In this document: one piece after another, positions 2,324-19,892 of the stretch | Position numbering within the stretch: position 1 is the first letter of the stretch | How the letters are laid out: each line of letters begins with the position of its first letter | IMG/VR virus record: IMGVR_UViG_3300031772_000336 | Location: 1 to 21,484 of that record | Reading direction: 5' to 3' (one strand) | Source: a virus | Length of the DNA stretch: 21,484 nt | Notes under the pieces: model-generated | Told to the model about the DNA's origin: nothing | Database searches by the model: none | The model's input: only the letters and a program-made list of their open reading frames with translations | Position numbers and translations under genes: made by a program

Positions 2324-2533
2324 ATGACCAGAAACAAACTAAAAAAGCTGATAAAGGAAGTCATAACCGAAACTGCGGAAATGTATAGCCGGATTTTACC
2401 GCCTAACAGTCCATCCACTCCATTTACTGCTGGGACTGAAACATTAAGTATCAGTAATTTTACCCGACAACAACTGAAAGTAACCACAAAAAATGTATCA
2501 GGCGTGGTATTCGTAGATATCCGAGATGGATAA
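2324..2533 (+). CDS. Small protein with a capsid-targeting-like N-terminal leader
   Basis: A 69-residue protein whose start at 2324 follows a TATTTATA box by 5 bases and has no SD. Its first 16 residues, MTRNKLKKLIKEVITE, form a basic amphipathic helix ending Ile-Thr-Glu, closely matching the leaders found three times in the 4221-6197 ORF. Ile/Leu-x-Glu is the cleavage consensus of the T4 prohead protease gp21, and T4 internal head proteins carry short N-terminal targeting peptides ending in such a site. I infer that this protein may be packaged in the head and trimmed. The remaining roughly 50 residues are Ser/Thr-rich with a short beta-prone end and match nothing I know. It lies between a large unknown gene and the tail tube gene. 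Confidence 0.7.
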   Translation: MTRNKLKKLIKEVITETAEMYSRILPPNSPSTPFTAGTETLSISNFTRQQLKVTTKNVSGVVFVDIRDG

Positions 2534-4013: not shown

Positions 4014-4021
4014 TATTTATA
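4014..4021 (+). promoter_or_regulatory. TATTTATA box directly after the HNH stop codon
   Basis: An exact TATTTATA starting immediately after the TGA of the HNH gene and ending 15 bases before ATG 4037. It would restart late transcription downstream of the terminator and inserted endonuclease. A predicted start about 6 bases downstream leaves a leader of roughly ten bases without an SD. Confidence 0.45.
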
Positions 4022-4220: not shown

Positions 4221-6197
4221 ATGAAGGCTATTCTTACAAAAGAACTCAAGTTGTATTTTGCCAGACCTGGTGAACTACATCACAGAGACATCATCATGAG
4301 GGTTTTTGGTATAGATACGGACATGGCTTGTGATGTGGGGGCTCTTGGAATTTTGATAGATAAAACAGGTGAAATAACAGATGAAACTGGTCGGCCTGCT
4401 TTATACATTGATCGTATGGATTGTCCGCCTGCTACAATAAAACAACTTAAATTTCTGAAAGATTATTGTATAGAACATCGATTAGAATTGTGGTATTTTA
4501 TACCCGGCAAAATGAAGAAAATAGATTTAAGTGAAAATATTATGAAGAAATCTACTCTCAAGAAACTCATTGAAACGATCATTAGGGAAACTGACGATGT
4601 TTTGACAGTAGAAGAAAACGATGAAGAAGACATTTGCGGTCTTTGTGGTGAGCCAGGTGCAAACAAAATCCATCACCCTCACTATTGGCCAGGAGAACAG
4701 AGGTCCACTGAAGAAAAGGTTCATACAGAATGTGAAAGAGAAGAGTGCCGAAGAGCACACGCTGATTTTTTACATAAGTACGGGCCAGAAGGCGTTGCTC
4801 AATTCCTACAGGGAATACGGGGATTAAAAGAGAATAAAGAATCGGATATATCTAAACAAATGAAAAAATCTACTCTTCAACGACTTATCGAAGAGGTCAT
4901 CCGTGAAAACACCGGGCAGCCTTCTGCTTACGGATTGTTTAAATATTTCTATAAACATAGAGTAGAAGATCTTACGAGTAGGGATTATCCCGAACTGAGA
5001 AAGTATGTTCGGAGTGCAGGCGGCCTCAAGAAATTTTGGCAACTTATTGTATCAGATAAAACTAATCAACGAACAGCCTCTCAGTTGCCTAAAGTTTTTA
5101 GATTTTTGGACGATCATCTCAAAATCAATTTTAGAGAAGGAGATTTGGAAATAGTTTTCAAAAAGGAAATAAAAGTACCCGGCGAACCATTTTACCCGAA
5201 TTATGGAAAACCGGGTTTTATTATTAATCATACTGGATTTACATGTTTAAATGTGGATCGTATGTTTCATCATTATTTTTCATCTATACCTTCTAATCTA
5301 TCAAGACCTTTATGGAAAAGTAGTGGACCAGAACATGAAATAGAGAATCTTTATCTTTTTTGGTATTGGGCGCAAACAAGGGAACCAAGAATAAAAATAA
5401 CAAAGTCAAGCAGTAAACTTCCACCACTGAAAAACGTTTACGATCCTCCTCCGGACATTGGATTAAATGAAAATTATATGAAAAAATCTACACTCAAGAA
5501 ACTAATAGAATCCGTTATCAAGGAAACAGATGATTATAAACATCTATATGGTCCCTTTGCGAATTCTGACGATGATGACGACTACGATTGGCCTGAAGAT
5601 GATACCGATACACCTAATACAATGGATGTCGTTCATCATTACGTATTTCTAGCCGACACCAACGACAAAATAGTAAAACGATATGATAATACTATTCCCA
5701 ATAAGTTAATTAAAAAACTTAGATTTAAAGGACAGCGCGTATTTGATGGTGCTACAGCGACGTGGGGGCCTATTCATGTTGATGCGTTAGAAAATAATGA
5801 TGGTGAAGTTTATGCGTATTTACTTTATACTAATGATGAAGACGCGGCTAGAGCGATAACGGTAGGTAAAGTACATCCAACCGAAATTATTGGAGATATT
5901 ATAGATGAAAACGTTGGCTACGCTCACGGAAACATCGGCGGCCCCCCTGAAGCAACTACTCACGATCCATTGGATAAAACAGATATTGTTAATGAATACG
6001 GCGATCCCAAAACCAGAAAACAGGCAGTCCGGTCACAAGGCCAGGATAAAGCGTTGGAAATGATTTATCAATGGGTAAAAACAGAAAAAATTGATCATAG
6101 TGAATTCGTTGACCTGATAAACATTTTTATTTACTCCGACCACGATCCCGATGATGAACCAAAACAACCGAGCTCAGGTCTTCGTGGAGAACCATAA
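4221..6197 (+). CDS. Modular protein with three internal capsid-targeting-like leaders, possible polyprotein
   Basis: A 658-residue ORF divided by three near-identical internal peptides, each starting with Met: residues 108-123 MKKSTLKKLIETIIRE, 214-229 MKKSTLQRLIEEVIRE and 420-435 MKKSTLKKLIESVIKE. The resulting segments are about 107, 106, 206 and 239 residues and do not resemble each other beyond the leaders. Segment two has a likely zinc site (C139-x2-C142, His-His-Pro-His, C171-x4-C176). Segment four is very acidic after its leader. Each leader ends in Ile-x-Glu, the T4 gp21 prohead-protease consensus, and also contains Leu-Ile-Glu. Two readings are possible: a polyprotein of head-packaged proteins cut in the capsid, or separate genes fused by stop-codon loss and still able to start internally. 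The ENI/ENY residues just before two leaders are conserved too, favouring translation through. No segment has a function I recognise. Confidence 0.75.
   Translation: MKAILTKELKLYFARPGELHHRDIIMRVFGIDTDMACDVGALGILIDKTGEITDETGRPALYIDRMDCPPATIKQLKFLKDYCIEHRLELWYFIPGKMKKIDLSENIMKKSTLKKLIETIIRETDDVLTVEENDEEDICGLCGEPGANKIHHPHYWPGEQRSTEEKVHTECEREECRRAHADFLHKYGPEGVAQFLQGIRGLKENKESDISKQMKKSTLQRLIEEVIRENTGQPSAYGLFKYFYKHRVEDLTSRDYPELRKYVRSAGGLKKFWQLIVSDKTNQRTASQLPKVFRFLDDHLKINFREGDLEIVFKKEIKVPGEPFYPNYGKPGFIINHTGFTCLNVDRMFHHYFSSIPSNLSRPLWKSSGPEHEIENLYLFWYWAQTREPRIKITKSSSKLPPLKNVYDPPPDIGLNENYMKKSTLKKLIESVIKETDDYKHLYGPFANSDDDDDYDWPEDDTDTPNTMDVVHHYVFLADTNDKIVKRYDNTIPNKLIKKLRFKGQRVFDGATATWGPIHVDALENNDGEVYAYLLYTNDEDAARAITVGKVHPTEIIGDIIDENVGYAHGNIGGPPEATTHDPLDKTDIVNEYGDPKTRKQAVRSQGQDKALEMIYQWVKTEKIDHSEFVDLINIFIYSDHDPDDEPKQPSSGLRGEP
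4527..4592 (+). repeat. Leader repeat copy 1 (codons 103-124 of the long ORF)
   Basis: DNA encoding LSENI followed by MKKSTLKKLIETIIRE-T. It matches the copy at 5463-5528 both in the leader and in about 15 bases before its Met (GAAAATATT versus GAAAATTAT). The ATG is at 4542, in frame with the ORF. Confidence 0.8.
4860..4910 (+). repeat. Leader repeat copy 2 (codons 214-230 of the long ORF)
   Basis: ATG 4860 begins MKKSTLQRLIEEVIRE-N in frame. Similarity to the other copies starts at the Met and stops just after the Ile-Arg-Glu; the bases upstream do not match copies 1 and 3. Confidence 0.8.
5463..5528 (+). repeat. Leader repeat copy 3 (codons 415-436 of the long ORF)
   Basis: Encodes LNENY followed by MKKSTLKKLIESVIKE-T, with ATG at 5478. 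Like copy 1 it is followed by Asp-Asp, so the copy 1/copy 3 similarity covers roughly five residues before to three residues after the leader. Confidence 0.8.
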
Positions 6198-6200
6198 ACT

Positions 6201-7592
6201 ATGAAAACCGTAGGTGTATATTCCGGGAGATTCCAACCACCCCATTTGGGTCATGTTGATATTTACAAACAACTCAAACAGGTGACCGGCCCCGATACTT
6301 TCATAGGATCGTCTGATAAAGTTGAGTTTCCAGGTTCCCCCCTCAATTTCCAAGAGAAACAACAAATTTGGGTTCGTCATGGTGTTCCCGCCGATAACAT
6401 CATCAGAGTCAAAAACAACTATAAACCTGAAGAAGTAACCGATAAGTATGACGCTAATAATACAGCTTTGGTTGTGGTCGTTGGTGAAAAAGATTACAAC
6501 AGGTTTGGTCAGAAAAAGACAAAACAAGGTAATAAAGAAGTGTGGTTAAAGGCCGACAATACTCCTGGATTTTACCAACCCTACAAGGGAAACGAAAACA
6601 ATTTAAGACCACTGAAAGAACACGGCTACATTTGGTTTATATCCAATTCAGTAAGAATCAGCGTGGGTGGAAAACAACTTTCTGGGACTGTGGCCCGTGA
6701 AGTTTTAAGTCATCCAAACCTAACCGACGAACAAAGACGAAAGTTATTTCAGAAGGTGTTTGGTTGGTTTGATATCGGTCTGTATGAGCACTTGGTTGAT
6801 AAGTTTACGGAAGCCAGATCGTTCTCAGAAAAACCCGCAACGACTCCATCCAAAATCACAAAACCCATCAAAGAGGAATCGGAAAACATGTTCTATATTG
6901 ACGTGTACAATAAGGATGGCGAAGTATTCACAACGATTGGTGCAAAAAATAATCTGAGTGTAACAACTGAAACCAATAGAATCTTTAAAGAGCATGATGC
7001 TGGATTCATACCGAAAATAGTGGTAAAGGATGAAAATGGTAAGCCGCTTAAAACAATAACATACAGAGAGTGGCTAAAATCGGGAGGCGTGGCAGCCTAC
7101 GCAAAAGCGAAACAGGCTTACATAGTTAAAACCGCTAAATTAAAGGCTAGCCGAATAGCAGCCAGATCGGGATCGCCATTGAGATTTTCTAAGACGGCGG
7201 ACCAAATCAAGGAAGTCATTAATCAGATAATCACTGAGTTGATGCCGCCAGCTTCAGCCATTCCTCAGAGCAGCGATGTCAGCGCAGTCGGAACCGACAC
7301 CACTCCTGTAGGTGCCGCCGAGCGAGCTAAAGCGGTTGCGCTGGCTCGGCAAAATGCTATGAAGGCCAAACAACAGGCTGAAAGAGATTTAAAAGCGATA
7401 ACCAAGGATAAAGAGTTTAAGGAAAAAGACCTGATAAGCCTCAAAAAAGACAAGATTCCTGATAAGCGAAAAGAAATAGACGCTCTTAATAAACAGGCGG
7501 CTTCTGGTGGAGAAGATACTTCTTCAGCTACCCTAACTGAAAGTTGGTTGGAAGACTTCAAAACGAAATTAAGGGAAGCCAAGAGAATATAA
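6201..7592 (+). CDS. Nucleotidyltransferase-superfamily protein with a coiled-coil virion-like tail
   Basis: A 463-residue protein. Residues 1-200 are a cytidylyltransferase/NMN-adenylyltransferase-type domain: GRFQPPHLGH at 9-18 supplies the HxGH nucleotide-binding motif (H15, H18), and LSGTVARE at 160-167 corresponds to the C-terminal (I/L)S-x-T-x-x-R motif. Such enzymes transfer a nucleotide from CTP or ATP with release of pyrophosphate; the substrate here cannot be told. Residues about 230-300 form a separate small domain beginning near MFYIDVYNKDG. Residues about 336-345 (IKEVINQIITE) resemble the leader helices of neighbouring proteins. After a Pro/Ala linker, residues about 370-440 are a charged coiled coil. 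Start ATG 6201 lies 3 bases after the preceding stop. Neighbours suggest it may be carried in the virion, which is an inference. Confidence 0.8.
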   Translation: MKTVGVYSGRFQPPHLGHVDIYKQLKQVTGPDTFIGSSDKVEFPGSPLNFQEKQQIWVRHGVPADNIIRVKNNYKPEEVTDKYDANNTALVVVVGEKDYNRFGQKKTKQGNKEVWLKADNTPGFYQPYKGNENNLRPLKEHGYIWFISNSVRISVGGKQLSGTVAREVLSHPNLTDEQRRKLFQKVFGWFDIGLYEHLVDKFTEARSFSEKPATTPSKITKPIKEESENMFYIDVYNKDGEVFTTIGAKNNLSVTTETNRIFKEHDAGFIPKIVVKDENGKPLKTITYREWLKSGGVAAYAKAKQAYIVKTAKLKASRIAARSGSPLRFSKTADQIKEVINQIITELMPPASAIPQSSDVSAVGTDTTPVGAAERAKAVALARQNAMKAKQQAERDLKAITKDKEFKEKDLISLKKDKIPDKRKEIDALNKQAASGGEDTSSATLTESWLEDFKTKLREAKRI

Positions 7593-8741: not shown

Positions 8742-11117
8742 ATGCCTGAAAACATTAAAGATAACATATCTATCACGGCTGAACTTCGTAACATATATGA
8801 AGAGATCGATGATATTCTTGAGAATAACAGGACCCAGTTGAAAGGGTTATACACCTTAACGTCGGACGTTTATGAAGAAAACAAAAAAATAGTTGAAACA
8901 CAAAAAAAAGCTTTCATCCAAACAAAGGCGTGGTATTCTGTTGAAGAACAAATACGAAAAAACCAAGAAAAGCAAAAAGATTTAAGAGAGGAACTTAAAG
9001 AATTGGTTGATGCTGAACTTGCTACGGAAGCAAACGTAGCAGCTATTATGTCGGAGGTAAATGCTCTGGTCGCAGCTAGATTGGGATTAGATGCAAAGAA
9101 GAATCGAAATGCAGCTATTGGAAATGTTTTATCGACTATCGGTTTGGAAAATCTCCATAAATCTTACACATCCATAAGTTCTACACTATCCCAAGGATTA
9201 AAACTTTCCACTGTCTGGGCCCTTATTGGTAAATGGTTAGCATTTTCCGTTGGTGTGTTCGATAAGATTGATAAGCAAGCTGCCGATTTTCGTAAGACAA
9301 TGGGAATAACCAGAACCTACACATCAGAGATAGACAAATCTGCTAGAGCAGTAGCTTTTAATTTGGCTCATGTTGGTGCAACTGCAAAAGATGCATACGA
9401 TTCATTTATTGGGATAGCTAACTCTCTTGGTTCTGCGTATTACGCAACCAAAGAAATGTCAACCGATATGGCTCTAATGCAGGCGCAATTGGGAATTGCG
9501 GCTGGAACGTCTGCTGAATTTCTACAGACAATGGGTATGGTCGGAAGAACGACTGCTGATGCCCAAAAGGACATGGCTTTATTTACAGCTCAATTGTCTG
9601 AAGCAGCAGGAACCAATCTTACTAAAGTAATGGGAGATGTGGCCAATGCAGCTAAATCAGGTTATGTTTTCTTATCAAGAGATCCCGCAGCGTTAGCCAA
9701 AGCCGCAGTTCAAGCTAGACTTTTGGGCACATCGCTTGATAAAATCACATCTTCTGCGGAAAGCTTGGTAGATTTCACACATTCCGTAGAAGCAGAAATG
9801 GAAGCCAGCGTTCTTGCTGGTGAAGGAATCAATCTTCAACGTGCTCGCGAGTTGGCTTACAATCGGGACATCAAAGGTCTTAATGAGGAAATCCTTAAAC
9901 TTGCTAAACAGCATCGTTACGAACAAATGGACCCGTTCCAACAGAAATCGTTTGCTAAAGCAGTTGGAGTATCGGCCGACGAAATGGGAAGAATGGTTCA
10001 ATCCCAACGGGAAAGAGCCAATATGGAAGCAGAGATTATGGCTCGTGGACCTCCTGCTGAAAAGGCTCGTCTTCAACGGTTGAAAGACATGGAAAGGGCG
10101 TCAGCCAATATAGTCAAGGATGAAGCGGCTTTGGCCAGAAAACAACTTTCTACGTTAGCCAACCAGTCCCGAATAGCTGCCATAACTAACTCTTGGCAAG
10201 CAATAACCCAACGATTGGCTGAGGTGATTCTTCCTGTAGTTGATGTCGTTCTTGGAGCTATTGCTTATACACTTGGAGTATTAAACAAGAGTTGGGTAGC
10301 TTGGGTAGGCGTTGCTGTAATGGGTTTGACTACAGTTATAGGATTGGGTTGGGGGTTTTATAAACTAATTGGAAGATTGGGTATGGCTTTTGGAAGAGCC
10401 ATTGGAACAGGTATCGCCTCAGCGCTTCAGGGAGCTGCTGTCGGATTACAAGCATTGGGTGCAGCCGGAGCCAATCCTATAACGTGGATTGGTATCGCCG
10501 CTTTACTTGCTTTGGGCGCCGCCTTTGTTATGGTGGCTTATGGTATAAATCTTATATTGAAGGCTCTACCACAAGCCGCTCAAGGTTTCAGTATTTTCGC
10601 TGAGGCTATAACTAAAATGGGTTGGAATGATATTGCTAAGATGGCGGCTATGGTTCCTGTGTTGTATGCTTTGGCCCCTGCTTTAGTAGCCTTTGCGGTA
10701 GGAGCAGCAGCCGGCGGCGGAGCAATGGGATTGTTGGCCCGTGGTTTCTCAGCCATAGGCTCTGGTCTGGCCTCATTAGTAAATCCCAATCTGGGTGGAG
10801 CCATTGGTCAAATAAACTTGATGGCGGAAGCAGTAAGAAATCTAAACACTGCCCTTGACGATATACCGATTATCAAAATGGCCGCAATCCAAATCACCAG
10901 TGCTATGGGTATGCCTGTTGCCAATGCAAGACAGACAGGAGACGATGCGGTAATCTCAACTCTCAACAGAGGCTTTGAGATGTTGGGCGGTAAAATCGAC
11001 CGAATACAAAACCCCGTCATGAAGGTGGATGGCCAACTCCTAACCTCTACTTTGGCCCGACAAACCGAATTCACGAATGGATATGGCGTGAATAATGCTA
11101 AACTGGCAATGGGATAA
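8742..11117 (+). CDS. Tail tape-measure protein (gp29-like by position)
   Basis: A 791-residue protein with tape-measure architecture. Residues about 10-125 are a charged coiled coil (many Lys/Glu and Gln). Residues about 180-470 are Ala-rich helices (TAKDAYDSFIGIANSLG and similar). Several hydrophobic segments follow: about 490-512, 517-545, 577-609 and 638-668, separated by Gly/Ala-rich stretches. Tape-measure proteins set tail length, fill the tube lumen, and leave with the DNA, their hydrophobic segments probably inserting in the host membrane. T4 gp29 has 590 residues, so a longer tail than T4 is possible but not established. It follows the gp26-like and small overlapping genes and precedes the gp48/54-like gene, a normal baseplate-module order. 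Start ATG 8742 has no SD. Confidence 0.8.
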   Translation: MPENIKDNISITAELRNIYEEIDDILENNRTQLKGLYTLTSDVYEENKKIVETQKKAFIQTKAWYSVEEQIRKNQEKQKDLREELKELVDAELATEANVAAIMSEVNALVAARLGLDAKKNRNAAIGNVLSTIGLENLHKSYTSISSTLSQGLKLSTVWALIGKWLAFSVGVFDKIDKQAADFRKTMGITRTYTSEIDKSARAVAFNLAHVGATAKDAYDSFIGIANSLGSAYYATKEMSTDMALMQAQLGIAAGTSAEFLQTMGMVGRTTADAQKDMALFTAQLSEAAGTNLTKVMGDVANAAKSGYVFLSRDPAALAKAAVQARLLGTSLDKITSSAESLVDFTHSVEAEMEASVLAGEGINLQRARELAYNRDIKGLNEEILKLAKQHRYEQMDPFQQKSFAKAVGVSADEMGRMVQSQRERANMEAEIMARGPPAEKARLQRLKDMERASANIVKDEAALARKQLSTLANQSRIAAITNSWQAITQRLAEVILPVVDVVLGAIAYTLGVLNKSWVAWVGVAVMGLTTVIGLGWGFYKLIGRLGMAFGRAIGTGIASALQGAAVGLQALGAAGANPITWIGIAALLALGAAFVMVAYGINLILKALPQAAQGFSIFAEAITKMGWNDIAKMAAMVPVLYALAPALVAFAVGAAAGGGAMGLLARGFSAIGSGLASLVNPNLGGAIGQINLMAEAVRNLNTALDDIPIIKMAAIQITSAMGMPVANARQTGDDAVISTLNRGFEMLGGKIDRIQNPVMKVDGQLLTSTLARQTEFTNGYGVNNAKLAMG

Positions 11118-11130: not shown

Positions 11131-13755
11131 ATGGCAAATAACGACAGATTAGACACAATCCAAATTCTATCAGGATTTCCTCCTGCGGTAAAAAACGTTC
11201 CGCCAAATTATCCAACCGTTCCAACTCCTGATAAGATCAGTCTGCTCTGGAGATACAACAGTACAGATATTTATCATCGGTTTAATCCATATACCGAATA
11301 CCCGATGTATTTTGGTATTCTTAAAAACAAACAACCTTTTGTTTGGAGATACCCAGACGAAGGAGATGAATCTTTATTTGGTGAGTTGCCTAAACAGTTT
11401 AAGTCGTTGGAATCAAGAGTATTTCCTGTTAGGTCAGCTTCCGACGACGCAGTTCGTATAGGTAAATGGTCTGTATCTCCCTCCGGTGTTTTATTTTACA
11501 TTAATCAAGCTACTCTGCAAAAGTTACAACCATGCGATGAAACTAGAACCTATGCCTTACCATCGGTAATGGTGTCCACGATTCGTCCTTTGACATTTGA
11601 TTTGTTGAACCGGCCCACGAGACACGTTGAAGGTCTGGGGGATATATTTGCTGGAGGAGTAGCAACTAAAGTTTTCAGTGTTTTTGGATTGAGTGGTGGA
11701 GGATTTTCAACACCCGGCAGCACCGTCGGCGACGGTGCTTTGCCGAGTGGTGGTGGGGGAAGAGGTTTAATCCGTGGAACAGATGCAAATAACGCGTTGA
11801 ATAATTTACAAATGAGATGGCCACCACCATCAGCCGGTCCAACGTCTTTTCTTGGTGGCCTTCTTAATTCCGCCACGGGCACAGCAGGTAATGTGCTCAG
11901 ATCGACTTCTGGAAGAGCAAAAAAATCTCCAGGACAATTCAGAGCGGATGAGGCTGCTGCGGATATGATGTATAATACCACAATACAATATCCTGTTAAT
12001 ATATATGCTGGCAATACCGGTCCAAGGTTTGCAGATTGGGTCATGCCTTGGAGTTGGAGTGGAAACACCGGAAAACCACCCCTTGCTAGTAATCCGGTAA
12101 AGTTTTATCCAACGCCACAGATTTTATCAAGAAATGTAATTACACCTTTTTCATTTCCGATCCGATATAGTGAGATAACTATACAAACGATAAATGATAA
12201 GACCGTTGGTGGATATCAACTGCCGATGACCATGTATGGAAATACAATTTTCCCAGCAAAAGATGAAGCATTCACCGAATCGGAAATGTTAATCAACTAT
12301 TCGTTTTATCTTAAACCACGATCTAGCGCAGTTAAACGTGATTGGATTTCAAAAATGACTGATCCTGAATCCGACGCGGTGAAGTCGATTAATAACAATC
12401 TGAAAGAGGTAATTAACAAAATTGATTTATCAGGAGACATCAGAACCGCCAATCTCTATGGTGGTTCCAAATTGATGTCGGATGGAAATCCTTCTCCTGA
12501 TATTTTGGGATATAATTGGATTATACAGCAAGGTCCAAAAAACAAATCCGATCTAAAAAACACTTACGGTGTTATAAAAGAATACAGCGATGCTTTTGCA
12601 AACTTCTCCAATATCAAATCAATAGATTCTTCTATTCGAGTTGAAAACGGAACCAACCTTAGAATGGCGACTTCTTTCAAATCGGACGCACTAAATCGGA
12701 TAAGTGTTTTAGAAAAGGATAGAAAGATACCCCCAGCTGAACGAATGAGCCAATATCCTCTTTATACGGAATGGGAACCCTATAAAGACGATTTAATCGC
12801 TTTCTTTTTCTACGATGTCGTCAATGAAAAGTATATTCCATTTCGAGCCACCGTCAAAGGAATTGCTGAAAGTAATTCGGCTCCGTGGGATGAACTTGCT
12901 TTCATTGGTCGTGCTGATAAACTCTACAATTATACTGGTTTTACCCGCACCTTAAACTTTACATTCAACGTAGTAGTCAATAGCATTATGGAATTGTTGC
13001 CGGTATGGAAAAAAATAAACTATATGGCTAGTGCAGTCAAACCTGCTAACTACACAACCGCAGGGTCAGCCGGTCAAAAAAGTTTTAACCGCTTTATGAT
13101 TCCCCCAATGTTTATGCTTACCATTGGTGATTTATACAAATATCAACCTGTAGTAATTACTTCCGTCAATGTGAATATACCTGAAGACGCTGCTTGGGAA
13201 ACATTAAATCAGGACAACTCAAATAAATGGAGTTACTTAAATGGTATAATTTCTGCTGCATATAATCTTGGTAAAAAGTACGGACAGCTTCCAAGAGAAG
13301 CTGAAATCCAGATAACCTGTAATGTGCTTGAAAAAGAAAGAGCTATTATTGGTGCAGGACATTATGGCCATGCTCCTCACACTGATTTGTTTTTGGAAGA
13401 TCAGTTTAATATCAGTGAAGCTTCTGACGGAAAACCTGCACTACCTTATTTGCCAACTCCGACCGATCTTCACAAAAATCTTTTGGTTTATAATGGTTCG
13501 GAAACTGTAAGAAGTTGGACTGAACGCGTGAAGGTTGATAAAGCAAAAGATAATGCCGCTTTGCTTGCAGCTCAACTTGATGAAAAGAGTGTTTATTTCA
13601 TAGGTCCAAAGATACCTCCGACGGGATTGCCAACAACTACGGGTGACAAATTAGCGGCTCAAAGCCAACAATTAAATAATGGTAAGAATGCTTTGGGAAC
13701 TAAAGGTACGGCTGCGCTCGGTAGGGCGACACCACCCAAACTGCCGACGAGATAA
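11131..13755 (+). CDS. Large baseplate/tail-tube-initiator protein with gp48/gp54-like C-terminal region
   Basis: An 874-residue structural protein. Residues about 174-216 are Gly/Ser-rich and look flexible. The most telling part is about 589-695: an Arg/Asp-rich turn, YNYTGFTRTLNFTFNV, then LLPVWKKINYMAS, a MIPPMFMLTIGD strand, and PEDAAWE. This pattern is typical of T4 gp48/gp54-type proteins, which cap the hub and start tail-tube polymerisation and share the tube fold. A WEPYKDDLIAFFFYD strand just before fits the same domain. It is more than twice the length of T4 gp48 or gp54, so the N-terminal 500 residues contain extra domains I cannot assign. Position between tape measure and gp53 supports a baseplate role. 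ATG 11131 follows a TATTTATT box by 5 bases and lacks an SD. Confidence 0.7.
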   Translation: MANNDRLDTIQILSGFPPAVKNVPPNYPTVPTPDKISLLWRYNSTDIYHRFNPYTEYPMYFGILKNKQPFVWRYPDEGDESLFGELPKQFKSLESRVFPVRSASDDAVRIGKWSVSPSGVLFYINQATLQKLQPCDETRTYALPSVMVSTIRPLTFDLLNRPTRHVEGLGDIFAGGVATKVFSVFGLSGGGFSTPGSTVGDGALPSGGGGRGLIRGTDANNALNNLQMRWPPPSAGPTSFLGGLLNSATGTAGNVLRSTSGRAKKSPGQFRADEAAADMMYNTTIQYPVNIYAGNTGPRFADWVMPWSWSGNTGKPPLASNPVKFYPTPQILSRNVITPFSFPIRYSEITIQTINDKTVGGYQLPMTMYGNTIFPAKDEAFTESEMLINYSFYLKPRSSAVKRDWISKMTDPESDAVKSINNNLKEVINKIDLSGDIRTANLYGGSKLMSDGNPSPDILGYNWIIQQGPKNKSDLKNTYGVIKEYSDAFANFSNIKSIDSSIRVENGTNLRMATSFKSDALNRISVLEKDRKIPPAERMSQYPLYTEWEPYKDDLIAFFFYDVVNEKYIPFRATVKGIAESNSAPWDELAFIGRADKLYNYTGFTRTLNFTFNVVVNSIMELLPVWKKINYMASAVKPANYTTAGSAGQKSFNRFMIPPMFMLTIGDLYKYQPVVITSVNVNIPEDAAWETLNQDNSNKWSYLNGIISAAYNLGKKYGQLPREAEIQITCNVLEKERAIIGAGHYGHAPHTDLFLEDQFNISEASDGKPALPYLPTPTDLHKNLLVYNGSETVRSWTERVKVDKAKDNAALLAAQLDEKSVYFIGPKIPPTGLPTTTGDKLAAQSQQLNNGKNALGTKGTAALGRATPPKLPTR

Positions 13756-18239: not shown

Positions 18240-19892
18240 ATGAATAGTCGAGAGAAACTCATAGAACGTGTGTTACGGGATGTATCATTCCGCCTTCCTT
18301 GTGGCGGAGCTTTTCTTGACTTTACTGACCATACTCAGTTTTCTCTTATCAAGGAGGCGTTGAAAAATCATGGCGTAAAATCAACAGAAATCGCGGTCAT
18401 TATCAAAGAACTTCAGGTACCCGACAAAAAGAAACAACCCAAGACTGAAATATCAGAAGAAGACATTTCTCTACTTCAGCGGTTGGGATTGGATATGCAA
18501 CCTAACGATATCAAGAGTAAGGTTGATACTGCCAGCGTGGAAGAAAAACATACCACATTTGATACGGGTGGAGGTCATCGAGTATTCCAACCCAAGAAAA
18601 TCGGTTATCGCCAGCTTGAAGATTTCATTGAAACTCAAAAGATTTGTTATGTTACGACTTCTAAAACGGTAGGCAAACTACGTTCCCAGGATAATATTCG
18701 GGTGGTTCAGTGGGGCCGGTCAAAAGGCCCAGGCCAGGGATTTTTCGATCAGATCATTTCCATTTACAAACTCATCAAATCATTCCAAGACAAGATTGTG
18801 GTATCAGTCAAAGCTCCCATAGGCCAAAACTACGAATTAAGTAGAGTTGAAGAGATTAACAAAGTATTGGAAGCTTCGGTTAGTCCATTCCGTTTATTTA
18901 TAGAGAAGGATGGAGTTATCAAGGATATGGGAGTTTTCATAAAGAAATCACATAAGGTTTTGGGTGTGGGAAAAGCGGATATCGCTTTATTAGACGATCA
19001 TAATCAGGAAGTATTTTGGGTATCCTACAAACACGGAGACTTTTTCGGCAAAGAAGGCCGTATAGCTCAATACGGCCCCGCTGAGTTTCCTTTTCAACAA
19101 TATGGTTCCCTACAAAACCTGTATGACCGTTCGTTGGGATCGGAAGAGGACATCGCGGAAATAGAAGATGTGCCGGGTGAGGATATCAAAAAGATAATCA
19201 ACCATTTTATCCACTCCATACTCAAAAAATCAGGCGTAGAAAAATATAGCATGTATGACGTTGAGGAAGTTACTGGAACTCCTGACGGAAGTTATGAGGT
19301 TCATTTTAAGAACAACAAAAAAGTTCCAATAGCTGAGACTCACCCGTTGTTTCCTGTATTTGACGATTTGGAAGTGTATCGTAAGCTAGTCAAATTTTTG
19401 GATAAAGGGCCGGGCAACATACATTTCTACCTTCAGGGAACCAAGGAATACTATTTTAACTTTCTCAAATCCAAACTGCTTGACCCGAAAAGCTTGAAAA
19501 CCATTGCCGGTAAATCTATTTATGGAGTGGACTTTTACATCGGAAATTCTGACTTTGGACGGGAGAATGTGAATATGCTTCTCCAGACCAGTAAAACACT
19601 TATGGTATCTCAACATAAACAAGCTAAGAATACAGATTTCGAAGATGTTGATGGTATCATTATTAAAACTGATGAAATGGGGCATATTCTTTTCAACCCA
19701 AACCTTCCTGATGAAGACGTTAAACAAGCATTCGATGTCATAGACCAATACACACCAATTCTTTACATAAGGTTTACCAAGAAAGAAGTGTTTAGATGGA
19801 ATAACGAAAACGGCCGGAATATTATTCTTGGAGGTAGATGTATGATATTGCCCAAAGGAAAGAAAGCCAACCGGGCGGAAGAGATTAAATAA
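18240..19892 (+). CDS. Protein of unknown function with nuclease-like core and virion-leader-like N-terminus
   Basis: A 550-residue protein. Its first 60 residues (KLIERVLRD, then a Pro-Cys-Gly-Gly turn, FLDF and an HGV helix) resemble the N-terminus of the next protein. The middle contains KADIALLDD (D247) followed 17 residues later by WVSYK (K264) and then FPFQQYGSLQ; this spacing and strand order suggest a PD-(D/E)xK nuclease-type core, though the usual Glu/Asp before x-Lys is Ser262. Related large-phage proteins with SYK-HG and QQYG motifs are, as far as I recall, uncharacterised. The C-terminal 150 residues are strand-rich with no motif I know. It starts 33 bases after the polymerase gene and ends 1 base before the next start. 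It could be a nuclease in DNA processing or a protein injected with the DNA; neither is shown. Confidence 0.75.
   Translation: MNSREKLIERVLRDVSFRLPCGGAFLDFTDHTQFSLIKEALKNHGVKSTEIAVIIKELQVPDKKKQPKTEISEEDISLLQRLGLDMQPNDIKSKVDTASVEEKHTTFDTGGGHRVFQPKKIGYRQLEDFIETQKICYVTTSKTVGKLRSQDNIRVVQWGRSKGPGQGFFDQIISIYKLIKSFQDKIVVSVKAPIGQNYELSRVEEINKVLEASVSPFRLFIEKDGVIKDMGVFIKKSHKVLGVGKADIALLDDHNQEVFWVSYKHGDFFGKEGRIAQYGPAEFPFQQYGSLQNLYDRSLGSEEDIAEIEDVPGEDIKKIINHFIHSILKKSGVEKYSMYDVEEVTGTPDGSYEVHFKNNKKVPIAETHPLFPVFDDLEVYRKLVKFLDKGPGNIHFYLQGTKEYYFNFLKSKLLDPKSLKTIAGKSIYGVDFYIGNSDFGRENVNMLLQTSKTLMVSQHKQAKNTDFEDVDGIIIKTDEMGHILFNPNLPDEDVKQAFDVIDQYTPILYIRFTKKEVFRWNNENGRNIILGGRCMILPKGKKANRAEEIK

Follow-up and report, generated by a model that had tools for sequence, protein, structure and literature searches.

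Three internal head-targeting-like tags in one open reading frame of an uncultivated T4-related phage suggest a possible polyprotein of capsid cargo

The window that we analysed is a whole IMG/VR record (IMGVR_UViG_3300031772_000336), a phage genome fragment of 21,484 bases. It carries a long open reading frame (ORF 4221-6197) situated 3′ of the tail tube gene and 5′ of a cytidylyltransferase-like ORF and the baseplate hub gene; each of these genes is on the + strand (Table 1). By matches to its tail tube and baseplate-region proteins, the phage groups with Microcystis phage Mel-JY01, Flavobacterium phage immuto and Rhodothermus phage RM378, the last being a cultured ‘Far-T4’ phage (PMC4360716). 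The ORF belongs to an uncultivated T4-related (‘Far-T4’-like) phage. Another IMG/VR record, L005, represents a near-identical phage, with 23 mismatches over the 4.5 kb shared with the window, and reaches 13 kb further upstream; its end (17518) falls exactly at the first of the tags described below. A stop at this point fits a sequence that differs within the population after the tag. The approximately 34 kb of this phage’s DNA that are covered include neither the head module nor a protease gene, and a PF03420 search of three partial records, from which the head modules are absent, gave no match.

Table 1. Coordinates of the ORF under study, its internal tags, candidate cleavage sites and neighbouring features in the window
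Feature	Position	Strand	Remarks
Small separate gene	2324..2533	+	69 aa, N-terminal tag of similar type, MTRNKLKKLIKEVITE
TATTTATA, possible late-promoter motif	4014..4021	+	5′ of the small gene (ATG 4037) located before the ORF; putative
ORF of 658 aa, ATG start, open	4221..6197	+	Four unrelated segments split by three internal tags
LSE105-N, candidate cleavage site	4527..4538	+	Just before tag 1; putative
Internal tag 1, MKKSTLKKLIETIIRE	4542..4589	+	Residues 108-123
LKE204-N, candidate cleavage site	4824..4835	+	Before tag 2; putative
Internal tag 2, MKKSTLQRLIEEVIRE	4860..4907	+	Residues 214-229
LNE417-N, candidate cleavage site	5463..5474	+	Just before tag 3; putative
Internal tag 3, MKKSTLKKLIESVIKE	5478..5525	+	Residues 420-435
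Cytidylyltransferase-like ORF	6201..7592	+	Tag-like helix KTADQIKEVINQIITEL at nt 7191-7241, before a coiled-coil-like part

An earlier reading made from the sequence only had noticed three near copies of one leader peptide in this ORF, and we found them at exactly the residues it gave. The copies are 16-17 residues long and end in IRE, IRE and IKE (residues 121-123, 227-229 and 433-435), each of which is an (L/I)xE end. The BLOSUM62 score against copy 1 is 60 for copy 2 and 71 for copy 3. When the remainder of the protein, with the residues of copies 2 and 3 left in, was shuffled 2,000 times, the highest score was 34 and the mean shuffle maximum was 15. At the DNA level, only 34-40 of 51 positions are identical, and the exact DNA pattern of the leader had no match in IMG/VR. 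The differences between copies 1 and 3 fall mostly at third positions (8/17, vs. 3/34 at the first two), indicating that the peptide and not the DNA has been kept between these copies; the contrast is weaker for the other two pairs (8/17 or 9/17 vs. 8/34).

The leaders divide the ORF into four segments, and the claim that these are unrelated also held, as they show no mutual similarity, and neither Pfam, PHROGs and NCBIfam nor the PDB gave a family match that passed the cut-off. Nor did the Pfam, PHROG and NCBIfam searches reveal, above cut-off, any recognised polyvalent domain (ART, MPTase, ParB, others). The ORF begins with MKAILTKELKLYF and has no tag at its N-terminus, so that all tags are internal and segment 1 lacks a leader of its own. 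Full-length searches for homologues, run against IMG/VR, the phage collection and the genomes of GTDB, returned only the overlapping contig L002/L005, as did segments 3 and 4 searched alone in IMG/VR. A weak local match to segment 1 was seen in L025 (E 0.008), and RM378, immuto and Mel-JY01 yielded no relative of the ORF at the sensitivity used. It had been proposed to look for the segments as separate genes in related phages; segments 2-4 have no detectable relatives, and therefore separate versions of them were not found. Single-sequence AlphaFold2 modelling of the ORF gave no usable fold (pLDDT 37).

Codon statistics favour the same frame over most of the ORF, and they do so too in the 20 codons leading up to each leader. 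The residues ‘EN plus one’, which are indeed present before two leaders (GAA AAT ATT ATG and GAA AAT TAT ATG), had been thought to favour continuous translation. This argument had to be given up: the GAAAATAT-ATG context also precedes unfused genes, such as those in L005 whose upstream neighbours end in KENI* and VENI* within GAAAATATATGA, with the stop overlapping the next ATG, so that ‘EN’ alone is not evidence for continuity. The same bases can in fact be read either as LxE-N or as the start-codon context. Continuity is supported instead by the codon statistics and by internal tags of relatives that lack Met. The window’s GAAAATATTATG and GAAAATTATATG are one base away from GAAAATATATGA of L005; therefore, a one-base change can fuse overlapping genes.

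To describe the tag as a family, we built a profile from 19 tags and scanned 132 loci. Matches of at least 10 bits numbered 39, vs. none in shuffled sequence, and they fell mostly at the Met of small genes. When the first 11 columns alone were used, 25 of 28 matches began with Met and 16 of 28 had [LIVM]xE at columns 14-16, where the background is 1.2% per position; many of the 28 belong to the seed set, which makes this a descriptive figure. N-terminal tags are present in immuto, and L016 has separate tagged genes at 11597, 11911, 12413 and ~12817, directly after the tail tube gene, i.e., in the place of ORF 4221-6197. For many of the separate tagged genes, the start shares ATGA with the end of the preceding gene or lies behind a TATTTATA-like motif. 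In the literature on immuto and RM378, we found no virion data on these tags. Three Mel-JY01 genes (L009, 10276-10926, 10923-11105 and 12056-12718) start with MIKLKSLLxE or MIKLMSLVTE followed by SDRVWHxT, and by eye they resemble tagged ADP-ribosyltransferase-like proteins.

The T4 late promoter is TATAAATA. The window has nine copies of TATTTAT(A) on the + strand and one on the - strand, most of them 11-40 bases upstream of a gene start (2311, 2563, 4014, 8708, 11118 and 18225 on the + strand; also 7303, 10676 and 15283 in L005), and it precedes many tagged genes of relatives as well. The 8-base form, with 5 copies in the window vs. 2.1 by chance, shows no strong excess. The motif is a possible late promoter of the clade that would give nearly leaderless mRNAs.

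The tag is found inside ORFs of other phages too: once in a 491-aa ORF of L005, three times in ORFs of L013 and L014, and also in cytidylyltransferase ORFs and in L105, L104, L109 and L127. The three-tag ORF is conserved between L013 and L014, the latter with an extra segment inserted just before tag 2. Several of the relatives’ internal tags lack Met (VSKKDIKGVIKELVDE, NPKRQLEELVYEILKE), and therefore embedded tags persist without being starts. In L127, a 369-kb phage record, a HELIHH-type peptidase-like part is joined to two consecutive tag-like helices (18663-19628, +).

Tagged modules are, moreover, joined in some relatives and separate in others. A Nudix protein is encoded by its own gene in L005 (8919) and is joined to a tagged protein in L013. 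A tagged coil-like protein has its own gene in L003 (3380); in the corresponding place, the window, L004, L013 and L014 carry a tag and a coil-like part behind the cytidylyltransferase, although homology of the coil part could be demonstrated just for L013 and L014. Separate tagged genes of these two phages also match, in their C-terminal part, a portion of the L005 ORF. An automatic scan for proteins fused in one phage and separate in another picked up NT5C-like and NTase parts, fused in L020/L021 and separate elsewhere; its dominant signal, the tail sheath, was discarded because it stemmed from a single sheath ORF that is split in L055. Genes resembling Nudix, NT5C nucleotidase and NMN-adenylyltransferase lie in or near the tagged cluster (8919-9671 and 10657-11220 in L005; 6201-7592 in the window; 107131-110455 in immuto) and may have a role in the metabolism of nucleotides or NAD at an early stage of infection.

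The head module of Mel-JY01 and immuto contains a protease and a gp23-like capsid protein. Their gp21-type proteases are 50% identical, and that of Mel-JY01 matches the phrog_207 head maturation protease (2e-54). A protease was found in 5 of 16 related records, i.e., in 5 of the 6 that are at least 47 kb long. In those capsid proteins of the clade whose N-terminal region is covered, an invariant [LIV]xE followed by A, S, N or V stands where the pro-domain is inferred to end (QLISE/A, QLIEE/S, QLLSE/N and similar). Furthermore, a core-like protein adjoining the protease bears the tag or a short (L/I)xE leader in Mel-JY01 (21704), L148, L037 and L139; in L148 (minus strand, frame at 489, 202 aa), the tag stands behind a fused DUF3008 (4e-15).

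In the ORF itself, 10 of 13 [LIV]xE motifs lie inside tags or at most 10 residues before one, which puts the protease motif at the segment boundaries. When 1,259 ORFs of the clade were scanned for an excess of internal (L/I)xE(A/S/N), ORF 4221-6197 ranked first, with six sites vs. 0.93 expected, two of them inside tags; the corresponding p = 4e-4 is uncorrected, and about 0.5 ORFs would be expected at such a level among 1,259. The multi-tag ORF of L016 came second, and scaffold, protease and capsid ORFs were within the top 40. With the tags masked, the excess was 2.96-fold for capsid, protease and scaffold proteins (a partly circular figure, because three scaffold members were named after the ranking had been seen), 1.72 for tag-bearing proteins, 1.27 for other, unrelated ORFs and 0.98 for NTase/HAD/cytidylyltransferase proteins. 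The enrichment is clear for head substrates and modest for tag-bearing proteins. The notion that the NTase/HAD/cytidylyltransferase proteins are enriched for protease sites at domain boundaries found no support in bulk. Upstream of internal tags, LxE-N is present at 3/3 in ORF 4221-6197 and at 6/19 clade-wide (p = 0.008), three of the six being those of this ORF, in a test devised after the pattern had been noticed there. The P1′ residue in ORF 4221-6197 is Thr or Asn; Ala and Ser are the commonest at the inferred capsid-protein sites.

The tags and their clade-wide distribution, the continuous ORF, the joining and splitting of modules, and the protease and capsid motif of relatives are established, and the tag resembles an address-and-cut label of the head, such that the ORF may yield a chain of cargo cut apart by the head protease. 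The explanation that we favour, with a probability just short of even, is a late gene of fused head-cargo cassettes that are targeted to the prohead and probably cut by its protease. Tagged cargo cassettes would have been joined in frame to give ORF 4221-6197, presumably expressed late. The tag, an amphipathic helix ending in (I/L)xE, would bind the prohead core as the T4 capsid-targeting sequence does, and the attached polypeptide would be enclosed in the prohead. The gp21-type protease would then cut after (L/I)xE at the tag ends, probably with second cuts shortly before each tag at LSE/LKE/LNE-N, thereby freeing several small proteins inside the capsid that might be ejected with the DNA. 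The earlier suggestion of a cargo string or of fused cargo genes is partly supported by a tag family that stands mostly at the starts of separate small genes across the clade, by the tag in a core-like protein next to the protease, by the gp21-type protease and capsid [LIV]xE of the clade, and by tagged modules that are fused in some relatives and split in others. Against it we count the lack of a protease or head module in the ~34 kb, the modest excess once tags are masked, the missing excess in the NTase/HAD/cytidylyltransferase set, the weakness of the upstream sites clade-wide, the tag-less segment 1, Thr/Asn at P1′, and the lack of detectable relatives of segments 2-4. Somewhat more tentatively, we propose a structural polyprotein, i.e., one cargo chain in which repeated internal tags both target the prohead and mark the protease cuts, with cargo sets growing by cassette fusion.

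The polypeptide might also be packaged whole, as a polyvalent protein whose internal tags stay uncut and serve just for docking, either to the prohead core or to some other structural partner, as helices. Phages are known to deliver multidomain ‘polyvalent’ proteins (PMC5512222), a relative encodes near its tail tube gene an ORF of ~1,150 aa (L025, 3255-6701, +) with an N-terminal nucleotidyltransferase-like part and ART-PolyVal (2e-19), and the site enrichment outside tags is only modest; however, (L/I)xE stands at each tag end and before all three tags, and the ORF tops the 1,259 for the motif. We consider uncut packaging the less likely reading. Rather improbable, in our opinion, are four translationally coupled cistrons that share a frame by chance, with separate proteins arising mostly from starts at the internal ATGs and cleavage unneeded. 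Met is kept in all three tags, GAAAATAT-ATG contexts precede real starts in L005, and ATGA overlaps with the upstream gene are frequent for tagged genes; but the internal ATGs are not preceded by a stop codon, so that the fusion would be translated as well, neither a clear Shine-Dalgarno sequence nor TATTTATA precedes these ATGs, and relatives have the Met-less internal tags.

A recent or accidental fusion of adjacent tagged genes, or an indel-type assembly error, would make the ORF functionally meaningless. One base separates GAAAATATATGA, the overlapping stop/start of L005, from GAAAATATTATGA, the fused form of the window, and the L005 contig stops at tag 1, as might happen at a variable locus. 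Yet L005 has the same bases through the first junction, all three junctions are in frame, codon preference runs on through the linkers, and multi-tag ORFs recur in other phages, one of them being conserved in L013/L014, all of which makes such an accident improbable. As for the tag having nothing to do with the head and serving as an amphipathic helix for a tail or host partner of tail-module proteins, many tagged genes do lie among tail genes (window, L013, L016); the tag or (L/I)xE leader in a core-like protein adjoining the prohead protease, and the same end motif in the T4 internal-protein tags (PMC9026906), argue against this, and we regard it as very improbable.

The tag offers a sequence-based means of recognising likely capsid cargo in uncultivated T4-related phages. 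The data suggest that cargo may be bundled in one chain cut by the head protease, just as eukaryotic viruses cut their polyproteins. If this is true, the tag predicts dozens of ejected proteins of unknown function, which are candidates for anti-defence activity, and it could be used as a packaging tag.

In T4, the capsid-targeting sequence is N-terminal. The gp21 protease cuts after L/I-x-E, and a 10-residue targeting sequence is enough for packaging (PMC9026906). Like IPI, IPII, IPIII and Alt of T4, the proteins considered here share a short (L/I)xE-ended leader on otherwise unrelated polypeptides, N-terminal in the relatives’ separate genes, within a clade that has a gp21-type protease; unlike them, the leader has ~16 residues and another sequence, is found within ORFs as well, with three copies in one, and is a predicted signal for virion entry and cutting. 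The phages RM378, immuto and Mel-JY01, which are Far-T4-like, have homologous tail tube and baseplate-region proteins. The T4 proteins gp22 and gp67 are each cut into several fragments (PMC9026906), and they resemble our ORF in being single polypeptides with several (L/I)xE-like prohead cut sites, which here are candidate sites; the products of gp22 and gp67 and of the head proteins of the giant phages phiKZ and SPN3US are, however, scaffold fragments or propeptides and not cargo separated by tags. Polyvalent proteins, including DarA and DdrB of phage P1 (Iyer et al. 2017, PMC5512222), likewise combine several unrelated segments in one phage polypeptide, and ART-PolyVal occurs in the L025 ORF of a relative. 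ORF 4221-6197 differs from them in having no known polyvalent domain, and while the release of polyvalent proteins is ascribed to embedded peptidase domains (PMC5512222), the cuts proposed here would be made at repeated tags by the prohead protease acting in trans.
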